From Streptomyces griseomycini (GTDB lineage Bacteria; Actinomycetota; Actinomycetes; Streptomycetales; Streptomycetaceae), in assembly GCF_014203535.1 (NCBI RefSeq), contig NZ_JACHJI010000001.1, positions 124,001 to 188,000 on the forward strand: a stretch of 64,000 nucleotides of DNA, in the 5' to 3' direction. A model generated the notes under the pieces. That model was not told the origin of the DNA. It made no database searches and worked only from the letters and a program-made list of their open reading frames with translations. This document shows positions 4,162-7,693 of the stretch, one piece after another (positions within the stretch are counted from its first letter, which is position 1; each line of letters opens with the position of its first letter). Made by a program: the position numbers and the translations under genes.

Positions 4162-5745
4162 TCAGGCGGTCCACGGCCAGTCGGCGTTCCGACCGGCCTC
4201 GAGCAGCGGGACCATGCGGAAAGCGGCGTCCGAGAGGCCCCCGAAGGTGTGCCGGTTCGCCGTGCCCGACGGGCCGTGGCCCGCCCGGTACCCGGCGAGG
4301 TTCCAGGTGTAGACGGGCACGTCGGCCGGGACCTGCTCGGTCGGGTCGCCGTACCGGCTGTGGGCGTACTGCTCGTCGGTGACGATCAGCACCCGGTCGT
4401 GCCCCTTGTAGTGCCGGCGCACCGCCTCGGTCGTGTCGGTGCCGCCGAGGTCGCCGAAGCGGTCGAGGACCTTCAGCACGGACTCGCCCCGGCGGAACCG
4501 CACCGGCTTGCTCGTCGAGCCGAACTCCACGAGGTCCGCCTTCGCCGCCCGCAGCGCGAGCGCGGTGCCGAAGACCGCCGCCGCGTCCGCGCGGGTGAGC
4601 TCGGAGCGGTCCGACATCCTCGAGTGGAACATCGAGCCCGAGCGGTCGACGAGCACCAGGGTGCGGCCGGGCAGCGCGGGCACGTTGGCCAGCGAGTGGC
4701 CGAGCGCCTGCTCCAGCGGGTACGACCAGCGCAGCGACGGCGCGTGCCGGTACGCGGCGAGGTACCGGAAGGGGAACTGCCGCGACCGCGCGACCTCCGC
4801 CGGGTCGGCGATGCGGGCGGCGACCCGCGCCGCCACCTCGTCCGAGACCCCGGCCCCGTCGAAGTTCCGCAGGTTGCGGACGAGGGCCATCGCGCCCATG
4901 GACGGGATCACGGCTTCCCAGGCCGCCTTGTCCATCGGTCCCTGCAGCCAGCCCGCCAGCGCCTCCCAGGTGATGCCCGCCGCCGCGAGCCGCTCGGCCC
5001 CGTCGGGCGCCGCGACGACCGCGCGCCGCTCCTCGACGGGCAGCGCCATCAGCTCGCGGTGGGCGGTGAGGACATGGTCCGAGGCGGGCGGCACCGCGGT
5101 GTCCGGGCGGTGCCGGCGGTCGAGGGCGTACCGGAACAGCTCGCCCTGCCACGGCTTGTCCGGGTCGGGGGCCGCGTGCACCAGGTTGAGGATGTCACCG
5201 AAGCGGTAGCCCTTGGAGGCGGTGTCGTACTTCAGCAGCGCCCTGCCGCCGTAGAGCCGGCGCACGGCGTCGGCGACGCCGCGCTTGACGGGCTTGGGGA
5301 TGTTCCGGCCGTACCGGGCGGTCCAGTACGCGAGGAGTTCGCCGGGCTCGTCGGGCCGCCGCAGCACGGAGTCCACGACCTGGCGGTTGGACGGGCCGTC
5401 GGTCGCGCCTGCCTCCAGGCGGGCCTTGACGTACTCGGCGGCGCCCACGATCGAGGCCGTCCGCAGGTTGCCCTCGCCGCGCAGCCAGCCGAGCAGGCCG
5501 GCGGTCCAGGAGGGGTCGGTGACGGCGAGTTCGCGGACGAGCTTCGCGAACCGGTCGTCGCGGTCGGCGCCGGTCTCGTAGAAGGTCCGCTGCGTCACGA
5601 GGTCGGACACGGCGAGCAGGAAGAGCTCGGAGCGGACCTCCCGCTCCTGTCCGCGGCCGCCCTCGCAGGTCCGCAGCACGCGGCCGGTCGACGTCACCCG
5701 CGACGTCGGCTGCGCCCTGGCGGCCCGGGTGTTGAATCGCGCCAT
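4162..5745 (-). CDS. rsr: Ro60/Rsr-type TROVE domain protein
   Basis: This is a 527-residue orthologue of the Ro60 autoantigen: a helical-repeat TROVE ring (about residues 20-350) followed by a von Willebrand A domain. The MIDAS metal site is intact as DRSGSM (about residues 367-372), with a downstream TDTTEAV and VTDEQYA. TROVE proteins bind Y RNAs on the outside of the ring and misfolded or 3'-tailed RNA in the cavity. In Deinococcus the Y RNA tethers the ring to PNPase. ATG 5745 is chosen because GGGGGA lies 8 nt upstream; an in-frame ATG at 5766 lacks this. Two Y-RNA-like genes lie directly upstream on the same strand, the usual bacterial rsr arrangement. No rtcB or PNPase gene is nearby. 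Confidence 0.92.
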   Translation of the reverse strand: MARFNTRAARAQPTSRVTSTGRVLRTCEGGRGQEREVRSELFLLAVSDLVTQRTFYETGADRDDRFAKLVRELAVTDPSWTAGLLGWLRGEGNLRTASIVGAAEYVKARLEAGATDGPSNRQVVDSVLRRPDEPGELLAYWTARYGRNIPKPVKRGVADAVRRLYGGRALLKYDTASKGYRFGDILNLVHAAPDPDKPWQGELFRYALDRRHRPDTAVPPASDHVLTAHRELMALPVEERRAVVAAPDGAERLAAAGITWEALAGWLQGPMDKAAWEAVIPSMGAMALVRNLRNFDGAGVSDEVAARVAARIADPAEVARSRQFPFRYLAAYRHAPSLRWSYPLEQALGHSLANVPALPGRTLVLVDRSGSMFHSRMSDRSELTRADAAAVFGTALALRAAKADLVEFGSTSKPVRFRRGESVLKVLDRFGDLGGTDTTEAVRRHYKGHDRVLIVTDEQYAHSRYGDPTEQVPADVPVYTWNLAGYRAGHGPSGTANRHTFGGLSDAAFRMVPLLEAGRNADWPWTA

Positions 5746-5797
5746 GGTGAATTCCCCCGAATTCATGTCCGTTTCGGAGGGAGGCGCGACAGGGGAA

Positions 5798-5936
5798 GGT
5801 GCCCGAGAAACGAGTCGGCGACGGAACAGTCAGGCGCGTCTTCCACTTCCGCCACGTCGACCGGGGGTCGACGACGGGATTCGAACCCGCAGTGAACCCG
5901 ATCCGAGAAGTATCCGCTGCCTGCGCACCGGGCACC
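5798..5936 (-). ncRNA. Y-RNA-like ncRNA 2 with permuted class II tRNA-like module
   Basis: Read on the minus strand, an 8-nt arm GGTGCCCG (5936-5929) is exactly complementary to CGGGCACC (5805-5798), closing the molecule. The conserved Y motif follows (GGTGCGCAGGCAG at 5929-5917, then TACTTC). Next come a T arm (stem GCGGG/CCCGT, loop TTCGAAT, 5890-5874), a perfect 8-bp acceptor-like hairpin CGTCGACC-CCC-GGTCGACG (5873-5855), and a D arm of the tRNA-Leu/Ser kind (GCG, 11-nt loop containing GG, CGC, 5852-5836). T arm, acceptor and D arm therefore occur in permuted order with the acceptor closed by a 3-nt loop, as in the YrlA class of bacterial Y RNA. No anticodon arm or CCA is evident. The ends are estimates, and no clear promoter is seen between the two RNAs. 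Confidence 0.8.
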
Positions 5937-6020
5937 CATCAAGTGCTGCGCCTCCCGAGATCAGATCGGCGGCGGCCTGGATTCGATCACAACGAAGGAG
6001 CCGTCGCCCGCGCACCGGGA

Positions 6021-6180
6021 GGTGCGTGAAGTTGTGGTGTCCAGAGATCGAGGCCGGCGGAACCGACGATGGTGCTCTGACCCCTGAGCTACACCGGCGC
6101 GTGGTGCCGGTGGCGGGACTCGAACCCGCGGCCGCCCCATTATGAGTGGAAGTAGGTCCTGCCTTCGCACCTGGACGTGC
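6021..6180 (-). ncRNA. Y-RNA-like ncRNA 1 containing a complete permuted tRNA
   Basis: The outer helix is GGTGCGAAG (6171-6163) against CTTCACGCACC (6031-6021), pairing nine bases with a 2-nt CA bulge. This resembles the bulged Ro-binding helix of Y RNAs, and the 5' strand reads GGTGCGAAGGCAG, close to animal and bacterial Y RNAs. The interior holds an anticodon arm, variable loop, T arm, 3' acceptor strand with CCA, a 3-nt link, 5' acceptor strand and D arm (see the next entry). Comparing RNA 1 and RNA 2 over the 23 nt from GGTGCG to TACTTC gives 18 matches. A TAGAGT promoter element lies just upstream. RNA 1, RNA 2 and rsr are in tandem on one strand. The 3' end is an estimate, because CGCACC can also pair with GGTGCG immediately downstream (6016-6011). 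Confidence 0.82.
6073..6151 (-). other. Circularly permuted tRNA-Met(CAU)-like domain
   Basis: In transcription order the minus strand gives: anticodon stem TTCCA, loop CTCATAA and stem TGGGG (6151-6135); variable loop CGGCC; T arm GCGGG-TTCGAGT-CCCGC (6129-6113); CACCGGC, A, CCA (6112-6102); a CGC link; then GCCGGTG (6098-6092), TA, and D arm GCTC-AGGGGTCA-GAGC plus A (6089-6073). The two acceptor strands are perfectly complementary over 7 bp. Joining the 5' half before the 3' half gives exactly 76 nt with canonical numbering: U8, A14, G18G19, A21, U33, anticodon CAU at 34-36, UUCGA T loop, A73, CCA. The break falls between positions 26 and 27. It may be a tRNA mimic within the Y RNA or a processable permuted tRNA; sequence alone cannot decide. 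Confidence 0.75.
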
Positions 6181-6183
6181 ATC

Positions 6184-6214
6184 ACTCTAGGAGGACGGCC
6201 GAGGGCCGGGCCAA
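6184..6214 (-). promoter_or_regulatory. Putative promoter of Y-RNA-like ncRNA 1
   Basis: On the minus strand TTGGCC (6214-6209) and TAGAGT (6189-6184) are separated by 19 nt. TAGAGT fits the Streptomyces housekeeping -10 (TAGRRT), and transcription would begin near 6180-6177, at the expected 5' end of the RNA. The spacer is slightly long. Confidence 0.5.
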
Positions 6215-6235: not shown

Positions 6236-7693
6236 TCAGCGGCGCTTCTGCCGCTTCCACGGGCCGGTGATGGCGAGCATGATGCCCGGCTCCTGGATGT
6301 TGGCGTAGAGGGTCTTTCCGTCGGGCGAGAAGGTGACGCCGGTGAACTCGCTGAACTCCGGCTCCTCCTCGGTGCCGATGTTCACCTCGTTGCGGGCGAT
6401 GGGGTACGTGCGTCCGCTGTCGGTGGCGCCGAACAGGTGCTGCACGCCCTCGCCGTCCTCGGCGATGATCAGGCCGCCGTACGGGGAGACGGTGATGTTG
6501 TCGGGGCCGTCGAAGGCGCCGTCCTCGGCGGGGTTCCGGTTGACGCCGAGCAGGACCTTCAGGGTCAGGGTGCGGCGCCCGGGGTCGTAGAACCAGACCT
6601 GGCCGTCGTGCCGGACCGGGCTCTCCTCACGGGCGTACGAGGAGACGAAGTACGCCCCGCCGTCGCCCCACCACATGCCCTCCAGTTTGCGGGCGCGGGT
6701 GACCTCGCCGGGTCCGAACTGCTCGCGCACGGCGACCTCGCGGGCGTCGCGGTCGGGCACGTCCACCCAGTCGACGCCGTACACCGTGCCGGTCCTCGTG
6801 GCGCGGGAGAGGTCGTCGACGAACCGGCCACCGGAGTCGTAGCACTTGGGCGCCTGGAGGACGCCCGCGTCGTCGGCGAGGGTGCGGAACCTGCCGGGGC
6901 CGTGGCGGAAGCCCTCCGGCGGGGTCCAGCGGTAGAACAGGCCGTTGGGCTCGTCGGCGTCCTCGGTGAGGTAGGCGTGGCCGCGCCTGACGTCGATGAC
7001 GACGGCCTCGTGGTCGTAGCGGCCGAAGAACTTCAGGGGCTTGGGGTCGCGGTTGGCGCGCCGGTCGGCGGGGTCGACCTCGAAGACGTAGCCGTGGTCC
7101 TTGGTCATGCCGTTCTCGCCGGCGCGGTCGGAGTTCTCCTCGCAGGTGAGCCAGGTGTCCCAGGGGGTGCTGCCGCCCGCGCAGTTGTTGGCGGTGCCGG
7201 CGATGGCGACCCATTCGGCGACGCTGCCGTCGGGGCGCACCTCGACGACGGTGCAGCCGCCGGGCGCGGCCGGGTCGTAGACGAGGCCCTCGGTGAGCGG
7301 GACGGGGAACTCCGCCTCGTCGCGCGGGCCGTCCATCTCGTGGTTGTTGACCAGGAGGGTGCTGCCGCGCGGGCCGGGGAAGGCGGCCGTGCCGTCGTGC
7401 TCGGCCGGCGTGAACTCGCCCGACTCCAGCCGGGTCTTCCCGGTGTGGGTGAGGACGCGGTAGGTGAAGCCGGCGGGCAGGGCGAGGATGCCGTCCGGGT
7501 CCGGCACGAGGGGGCCGTAACCGACTCCGCCGTGCCGGTCCGCCGCGGTCTCGGACCGCTCGTCCGCGCTCTCGGTCTCGGCGGTCGCGAGGGCGTGGGG
7601 TGCGGAGGAGAGGGCGCCGACGCTGCCCACCAGTGCGACACCGGCACCGGCGATCGCGGAGTTCCTGGCGAAGTCCCTGCGGGTGAGCGACAT
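6236..7693 (-). CDS. PhoX/DUF839-family Tat-exported phosphatase
   Basis: This 485-residue protein has a twin-arginine signal (RRDFARNSA at residues 5-13, hydrophobic stretch, AHALA region) and a single PhoX/DUF839 beta-propeller domain. Family hallmarks visible include LLVNNHEMDG, WLTCEENSD, HGYVFEVDP and a C-terminal FTGVTFSPDGKTLYANIQEPG. PhoX enzymes are calcium/iron alkaline phosphatases that release phosphate outside the cell. The ATG at 7693 is preceded by AGGAGA. A PHO-box-like direct repeat lies about 70-90 nt upstream, arguing for PhoP control. The next genes downstream on this strand are the Y-RNA and Ro60 genes, which have their own promoter. Confidence 0.88.
   Translation of the reverse strand: MSLTRRDFARNSAIAGAGVALVGSVGALSSAPHALATAETESADERSETAADRHGGVGYGPLVPDPDGILALPAGFTYRVLTHTGKTRLESGEFTPAEHDGTAAFPGPRGSTLLVNNHEMDGPRDEAEFPVPLTEGLVYDPAAPGGCTVVEVRPDGSVAEWVAIAGTANNCAGGSTPWDTWLTCEENSDRAGENGMTKDHGYVFEVDPADRRANRDPKPLKFFGRYDHEAVVIDVRRGHAYLTEDADEPNGLFYRWTPPEGFRHGPGRFRTLADDAGVLQAPKCYDSGGRFVDDLSRATRTGTVYGVDWVDVPDRDAREVAVREQFGPGEVTRARKLEGMWWGDGGAYFVSSYAREESPVRHDGQVWFYDPGRRTLTLKVLLGVNRNPAEDGAFDGPDNITVSPYGGLIIAEDGEGVQHLFGATDSGRTYPIARNEVNIGTEEEPEFSEFTGVTFSPDGKTLYANIQEPGIMLAITGPWKRQKRR

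Follow-up and report, generated by a model that had tools for sequence, protein, structure and literature searches.

A predicted Streptomyces Y RNA with a permuted whole-tRNA cloverleaf whose anticodon stem is split by a putative Ro60-binding stem

When a stretch of bacterial DNA reads as a complete tRNA with its 3′ half placed before its 5′ half, is it a rearranged tRNA gene, a Y RNA that imitates a tRNA, or a likeness without consequence? This question is raised by a locus on the minus strand of a 64,000-nucleotide stretch of Streptomyces griseomycini DNA (contig NZ_JACHJI010000001.1, positions 124,001 to 188,000; hereafter the window), for which an original prediction, made from the letters alone, had described a complete tRNA cloverleaf with anticodon CAU in permuted order. 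The minus-strand letters are as described: rejoined, they give 76 nt with all canonical landmarks, the acceptor halves pair at 7 of 7 positions, CGC alone separates CCA from position 1, and ARAGORN calls the rejoined molecule tRNA-Met(cat) and finds 0 tRNAs in the window in native order. We do not take this call as proof because it is too permissive. Among the 159 distinct cellular units with an anticodon arm that are defined below, ARAGORN called 158 after rejoining (156 with the expected anticodon) and 17 in native order, and after the letters at positions 26-48 of the rejoined units had been shuffled it still called 110, 115 and 116 of the 159. The case therefore rests on comparison among relatives. 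Folding energy was likewise set aside as uninformative, the minimum-free-energy fold of Y1, as we call the predicted unit, being not unusually stable (z = -1.0).

Results

Y1 as a whole spans 6176-6039 on the minus strand, which also carries every other feature of the window given below, and it lies between a PhoX gene on its upstream side and, downstream, a TROVE-domain gene (Ro60 orthologue, Rsr; 4162..5766; Pfam PF05731, E 9.9e-13). It scores 160.6 bits with R1, a covariance model built from 38 distinct Y1 sequences whose alignment itself contained the Y1 sequence, and its structure was followed by covariation on two alignments, A1 and A4. A putative -10 element of a Y1 promoter, TAGAGT (6184..6189), is conserved: among 116 distinct stretches from upstream of such units the first T is kept in 97%, A in 99% and the last T in 97%; a sigma-70 scan found nothing. 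The outer stem is formed by GUCCAG (6171..6176) and CUGGAC (6039..6044), and 99.3% of its A4 cells are paired, with two-sided changes at 4 of 6 pairs; in A1 the GUCCAG strand is invariant, partly since the search motif fixed it. The next segment is GUGCG, followed here by AA (6164..6170); GUGCG recurs in all three units of the locus and upstream of TROVE genes in relatives that were retrieved by protein, and from its resemblance to the internal loop of animal Y RNAs that serves as the Ro60 site we take it to be the likely Ro60 contact strand. It is followed by the inner Ro-stem, GGCAGGACC (6155..6163) with GGUUCCGCC (6056..6064), in which 87.9% of A4 cells are paired and 6 of 9 pairs show double changes, pair 18-129 being unpaired in 27 of 45 rows.

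The tRNA-like head is enclosed by these stems. A linker UACUU (6150..6154), kept also in armless units, leads into the anticodon hairpin CCA-CUCAUAA-UGG (tRNA positions 29-41; 6137..6149), which has the triplet CAU at 6144-6142 and shows two-sided changes in A4. There follow G42 and G43 (6135..6136), the 3′ side of the anticodon-stem base; the variable loop CGGCC (positions 44-48; 6130..6134); the T arm GCGGG-TTCGAGT-CCCGC (6113..6129), its stem 100% paired in A4 and the arm matched by the Rfam YrlA model; the acceptor 3′ strand CACCGGC (positions 66-72; 6106..6112), with 98.1% of cells paired and 6 of 7 pairs showing double changes; the acceptor-closing loop ACCACGC, that is A73-CCA plus CGC (6099..6105); the acceptor 5′ strand GCCGGTG (positions 1-7; 6092..6098); and U8, A9, the D arm and A26 (6073..6091; D stem 100% paired in A4), where TA precedes the D arm GCTC-AGGGGTCA-GAGC (6089-6074) and A26 is 6073. 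On the far side of the D arm lie C27 and C28 (6071..6072) and then a linker AUCGUC (6070-6065), just before the inner Ro-stem 3′ strand. The original prediction had closed the anticodon stem with U27U28 (6151-6150), through two G-U pairs, at the end of the first linker. The comparative data instead place positions 27-28 at the two Cs of 6072-6071, so that the stem has five Watson-Crick pairs, the two Us are better read as unpaired, and the stem is split between 28 and 29, where the predicted Ro-binding stem is inserted. C27C28 lie just outside the range first given for the module, 6073..6151.

Besides the split, two further units downstream had been overlooked. Y2 (5952..6021) is Y RNA-like, shares the GGUGCG and CUUC motifs and has similar counterparts in relatives; no T arm was found in Y2. 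Y3 (5800..5934) is permuted tRNA-like (R1 64.2 bits) and, by eye, has the canonical YrlA layout with no separate anticodon hairpin, and a Leu-like D arm. Y1, Y2 and Y3 have GGUGCG..(A/C)CUUC in common. In some relatives (L004, L006) the Y3-type unit upstream of TROVE has, again by eye, an apparent class II variable arm, and judged from such sequences tRNA mimicry by these Y units may cover both tRNA classes. The S. griseomycini genome holds one more Y-like unit (L204, G000:C8:96887-97032; R1 E 1.7e-9), which ARAGORN reads as tRNA-Thr.

Relatives were gathered by TROVE, motif or R1 searches, and because the loci were selected in this way the unit frequencies given here are not genus-wide. TROVE matches were found in 35 of 61 genomes searched, that of S. 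griseomycini included, and in a set of 29 stretches 22 hold a Y1 unit, two of them duplicates; the Y1 sequence is identical in L012 and in S. hygroscopicus (L041). With R1, 304 of 392 Streptomyces genomes gave matches at E <= 1e-3, a count that is inflated, since the four matches of E~1e-8 that were opened proved to be tandem tRNA-Asn genes (L205, L197, L198, L199). These are false positives of R1-type models: the permuted module is imitated where the first tRNA-Asn contributes its anticodon arm, T arm and acceptor, and the next its acceptor and D arm, and the matches cover model positions 26-103 only, within two real tRNAs. In a survey of the class at E <= 1e-9, R1 matched 48 of 394 genomes and 19 of 137 genera, with at least one match (G230) that spans positions 26-103 only and may be of the tandem kind. 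Full-length R1 matches among those listed were taken in down to E 3.3e-21.

The resulting collection comprises 291 distinct cellular tRNA-like units from 221 loci. They were parsed from landmarks, with offsets fixed relative to two anchors, the final C of (A/C)CUUC and the point where the D stem ends, and an arm was counted where the three pairs 29-31:39-41 surround exactly seven loop nucleotides, which is so in 159 units. The fetched stretch contains a TROVE match for 128 of these and none for the other 31, and at eleven orphan loci (L322-L329, L331, L334, L335) there was no TROVE match within 17 kb, so Rsr may not partner every copy. Most of the eleven orphan units have, by eye, a Glu-like D arm, and the flanking ORFs of eight mostly differ. 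In one genome (G005; L027) the TROVE match has an in-frame TGA, and that copy may therefore be broken.

The split of the anticodon stem was assessed on A4 and on all 159 cellular arm units. A4 was aligned by R1, which does not contain pairs 27-43 and 28-42, favours GG at 42-43 and holds no information on 27-28 after the D arm; its 47 sources were chosen from the loci so as to include variants, and rows were kept at E <= 2e-20 (45 of the 69 matches at 1e-8). All 90 A4 cells at 42-28 and 43-27 are paired, with zero one-sided changes: pair 42-28 is G-C in 22 rows, A-U in 21 and C-G in 2, and pair 43-27 is G-C in 42, C-G in 2 and A-U in 1. In 500 shuffles neither the percentage of paired cells nor the covariation score nor the count of double-change cells was ever equalled; 27 and 72 of 500 reached the pair count and the pair-type count, measures that are weak because just two pairs are under test. 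Sliding by +1 column still left 81% of cells paired. A sign test on independent pairs was discarded as underpowered, with 4 supported pairs. In the full set both pairs are formed in 154 of 159 units, and 311 of 318 cells are paired, where 2000 shuffles gave 290 at most. Thirty-two units depart from C27-G43/C28-G42, of which 25 keep two Watson-Crick pairs, 2 form both with a G-U, and 5 are broken, two of these (both L217) looking like misparsed D arms.

A contiguous 5-bp hairpin closed by U27U28 pairs almost as often (153 versus 154 of 159 units), but in A4 it shows one-sided changes only and 4 unpaired cells, and it was rejected because the split stem outscores it on compensatory changes. Higher in the stem, two-sided changes occur at pair 30-40 in 23 of 45 rows and at 31-39 in 25 of 45. 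The compensatory changes that the original prediction had proposed to look for in Streptomyces Y-RNA loci are thus present in both the anticodon stem and the acceptor. By this comparative evidence, the five-base-pair anticodon stem is real but split, with the predicted Ro stem entering between 28 and 29.

Of the loop that this stem carries, U33 is kept in 158 of the 159 cellular arm units and A38 in 157; position 32 is C in 148, and position 37 is a purine in 142. Over 114 Streptomyces Y1 sequences, variation amounts to 1.20 and 1.24 bits at positions 34 and 35, the most variable of the arm, versus 0.07 at 33 and 38, and the anticodons seen include CAU, GAU, GUU, CUU and CUC, among others. A tree from which the tested columns had been left out gave at least 82 changes of the triplet, against 16 for pair 28-42, 17 for 30-40, 21 for 31-39 and 7 for 27-43. 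By a longest-stem rule, 137 of 180 hairpin units have 7-nt loops; the fixed offset gives 7 nt for 14 more that this rule reads as 9 nt. A smaller loop of 3 or 5 nt could be formed by extension of the hairpin in nine of the 159 (L036 and L163 included); L031 has a 4-nt loop that is not anticodon-like, and L012 and L049 have 6-nt loops. Since U33, A38 and the stem are held while the triplet drifts, selection appears to act on the shape of the anticodon arm and not on its codon meaning. The acceptor-closing loop is not conserved either, varying from ACAACGC to UUCG and others, and CCA stands in register in 21 of 159 units. Free drift of the anticodon loop and CCA among homologues is what the original prediction had itself named as evidence against a tRNA function, and taken together the two drifts make it unlikely, as judged from sequence, that Y1 functions as a tRNA.

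Viral contigs were searched with a motif that ignores the anticodon arm. Among the 80 loci listed (120 stretches), 33 hold a parsed tRNA-like unit and 47 do not, and a TROVE match lies in the same stretch for 28 of the 33. The distinct viral arm units number at least 19; U33 and both split pairs are present in 19 of 19, so that 38 of 38 cells are paired, a value reached by 0 of 5000 shuffles, and the U27U28 version pairs in 18 of 19. Searches of plasmid and phage records with blastn returned 12 and 1 matching records, respectively, with a M. abscessus prophage among the matches. In Mycobacterium phage prophiGD43A-5 (MW584167.1; L460:5960-6110), the annotation gives tRNA-Thr(tgt) for a Y-like unit that sits upstream of a gene annotated as "Ro-like RNA binding protein"; to judge from this one prophage case, such Y units can be mis-annotated as tRNAs. 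Y-like units that differ from one another, recognized by motif, stand in arrays of four or five beside TROVE (L336, L337) and on viral contigs (L358, L409). At a separate cellular locus (L330:4782-8856; G419:C174), 16 tRNA genes form a cluster that has a TROVE gene right next to it, and a split-arm unit is set among them with tRNA-Thr on one side and tRNA-Gly on the other; a second unit near 6569 has, by eye, an apparent Leu-like long variable arm.

Discussion

We consider it probable that Y1 is a Y RNA that carries a permuted whole tRNA cloverleaf, its anticodon stem split by a predicted Ro60-binding stem, and that the cloverleaf is a tRNA-shaped docking or decoy module and not a tRNA. Sequence and covariation show that the order is permuted and the acceptor closed, that the 7-nt loop with U33 is intact, that the 27-28:42-43 pairs and both the outer and the inner stem are formed, and that a TROVE gene lies next door. 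That the locus is Y RNA-like, as originally proposed, is borne out by YrlA being its best Rfam match, though below threshold, by end stems that covary and by the TROVE gene directly downstream. In such a scheme Y1 would be transcribed from the conserved -10-like TAGAGT and bound by Rsr through the GUGCG stem, presumably as at the animal Ro60 site, and it would fold into an L shape from which the Ro stem leaves the anticodon stem at a three-way junction. A tRNA-binding enzyme, perhaps a modifier, a nuclease, or PNPase as for YrlA, might then engage the whole mimic, which is the least certain step, and Y1 would either tether this partner next to the Rsr ring or divert it from real tRNAs. The closed acceptor would bar charging, and a freely drifting triplet would make decoding irrelevant. 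The topology is unexpected, with a predicted protein-binding helix inserted into an anticodon stem whose base comes from two distant strands, and an arm kept for shape (U33, A38, stem) and not for a codon suggests a partner by which anticodon arms are recognized.

A narrower proposal is that sets of mimics with differing anticodon arms absorb tRNA-cutting toxins or defence nucleases as decoys, and that phages carry them as counter-defence. We regard this as possible, on balance unlikely. It would fit the triplets, which differ at every one of the 6 loci that hold at least two arm units, the Y units that viral contigs have together with TROVE in one stretch, and the bacterial unit inside a 16-tRNA-gene cluster with TROVE just beside it. 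The literature is also suggestive, in the parts of these sources that were covered: a role for YrlA as competitive inhibitor of an anticodon nuclease has been put forward as a suggestion (PMC7790460), and jumbo-phage TROVE proteins have been linked to RNA repair (PMC7824862). However, the target nuclease is hypothetical, the covered part of PMC7790460 reports no YrlA fragments in Salmonella, and of the loci with units (221 cellular, and 33 viral among those listed) only 6 hold two or more arm units, the window having one; the RtcB ligase of S. griseomycini, moreover, is encoded on another contig. An extension of the same idea is more tentative still and, to us, doubtful: that actinobacterial and actinophage Y RNAs include whole-tRNA impostors with diversified anticodon arms, opened in the anticodon stem and mounted on Ro60, which serve as decoys for anticodon nucleases or other tRNA-targeting weapons. 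The phage copies beside Ro60 make a role in conflict testable.

That Y1 is an ordinary YrlA-type Y RNA, in which the extra hairpin merely fills a junction and its likeness to an anticodon arm is incidental, seems improbable. The D arm, T arm and closed acceptor are as in YrlA, and the hairpin without an anticodon-like loop in L031, together with the nine units able to form smaller loops, would suit a filler. Against a filler stand the 7-nt loops of most hairpin units, U33 and A38 staying near invariant while 34-35 drift, and a five-pair stem completed by a split strand.

The original prediction had considered a working permuted tRNA, and in its full form this would be a Y-like transcript that is cut and resealed into tRNA-Met/Ile(CAU). 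The 76 nt with all landmarks, the encoded ACCA, a best-scoring tRNA of its own genome that is Met(cat) at 78% identity and an RtcB ligase encoded in the genome speak for it; linkage of RtcB to Y1 is rejected, since the gene lies on another contig, and a specific tRNA parent is rejected, the best own match being 78%. Against it, the triplet changes far more often than the varying stem pairs, and the body does not fit the anticodon: the best-scoring native tRNA shares the anticodon of the unit in 30 of 159 cases, a number that masking the loop lowers to 5. Some relatives have a UUCG-closed acceptor and two have 6-nt anticodon loops; inspection of the 28|29 junction (linkers UACUU and AUCGUC) revealed no bulge-helix-bulge, that is, no two 3-nt bulges around a 4-bp helix; and 57 distinct ordinary tRNAs, Met(cat) three times, are present among the genome loci read. 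The drift of CCA is indecisive on its own, because CCA is not encoded either by the permuted tRNA genes that the covered part of PMC3978253 describes in the alga C. merolae. With anticodon drift and the mismatch of body and anticodon, along with a kept predicted Ro-binding stem and an adjacent TROVE gene, we consider this reading very improbable.

An artefact of tandem or degenerate tRNA genes has next to no probability: although R1 does match the tandem tRNA-Asn pairs of the four genomes opened, the window holds no tRNA, full Y stems covary, and for the counted units it was rejected because the counts require GGUGCG..CUUC, absent from the four tandem stretches.

Comparison with known systems

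The tRNA-like domain of tmRNA has a free, charged CCA end and is not known to have an anticodon arm. It and Y1 are both tRNA mimics of the stable-RNA type, and they differ in that Y1, as a predicted RNA, has a closed acceptor and an anticodon arm. Animal Y RNAs are not known to be tRNA-like above the lower stem. They resemble Y1 in the lower stem itself, which is their Ro60 site (PMC4726728, as far as covered) and is predicted to be so in Y1.

Permuted tRNA genes of algae and Thermofilum (PMC3978253, in the part covered) share with Y1 a 3′ half that lies upstream of the 5′ half around a short acceptor-side intervening sequence. Unlike them, Y1 has long conserved Y stems, a TROVE neighbour and no bulge-helix-bulge that could be seen, and in Y1-type units the anticodon is neither maintained nor fitted to the tRNA body, drifting even among close relatives.

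The closest likeness is to YrlA. At gathering thresholds, Rfam models gave nothing in the window; with relaxed thresholds YrlA (RF02553) was the best match, at 30.4 bits for Y1 and 19.2 for Y3, both under its gathering threshold of 69. Y1 and YrlA are alike in the stem formed by the 5′ and 3′ ends, in the permuted order of T arm, loop-closed acceptor and D arm, and in the adjoining Ro60/TROVE gene. The Rfam consensus has no anticodon hairpin, and its base stem runs into the tRNA-like core. The mimicry described for YrlA in the covered part of PMC8394870 comprises the D, T and acceptor arms, and YrlA is described there as bound by PNPase and modified by DusA and TruB; Y1 adds a full anticodon arm, conserved with compensatory changes and exceeding that partial mimicry as originally claimed, and its Ro stem stands between positions 28 and 29. 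In the literature covered, bacterial Y RNA mimicry is that of a partial tRNA. That literature is a partial selection outside the primary YrlA studies (PMC7790460, PMC9569102, PMC8394870 and PMC11277228 among others), and within it an anticodon arm in a bacterial Y RNA is not mentioned. Provisionally, then, the arm and the topology of Y1 appear undescribed so far, and Y1 looks related to YrlA and seems to work like it.
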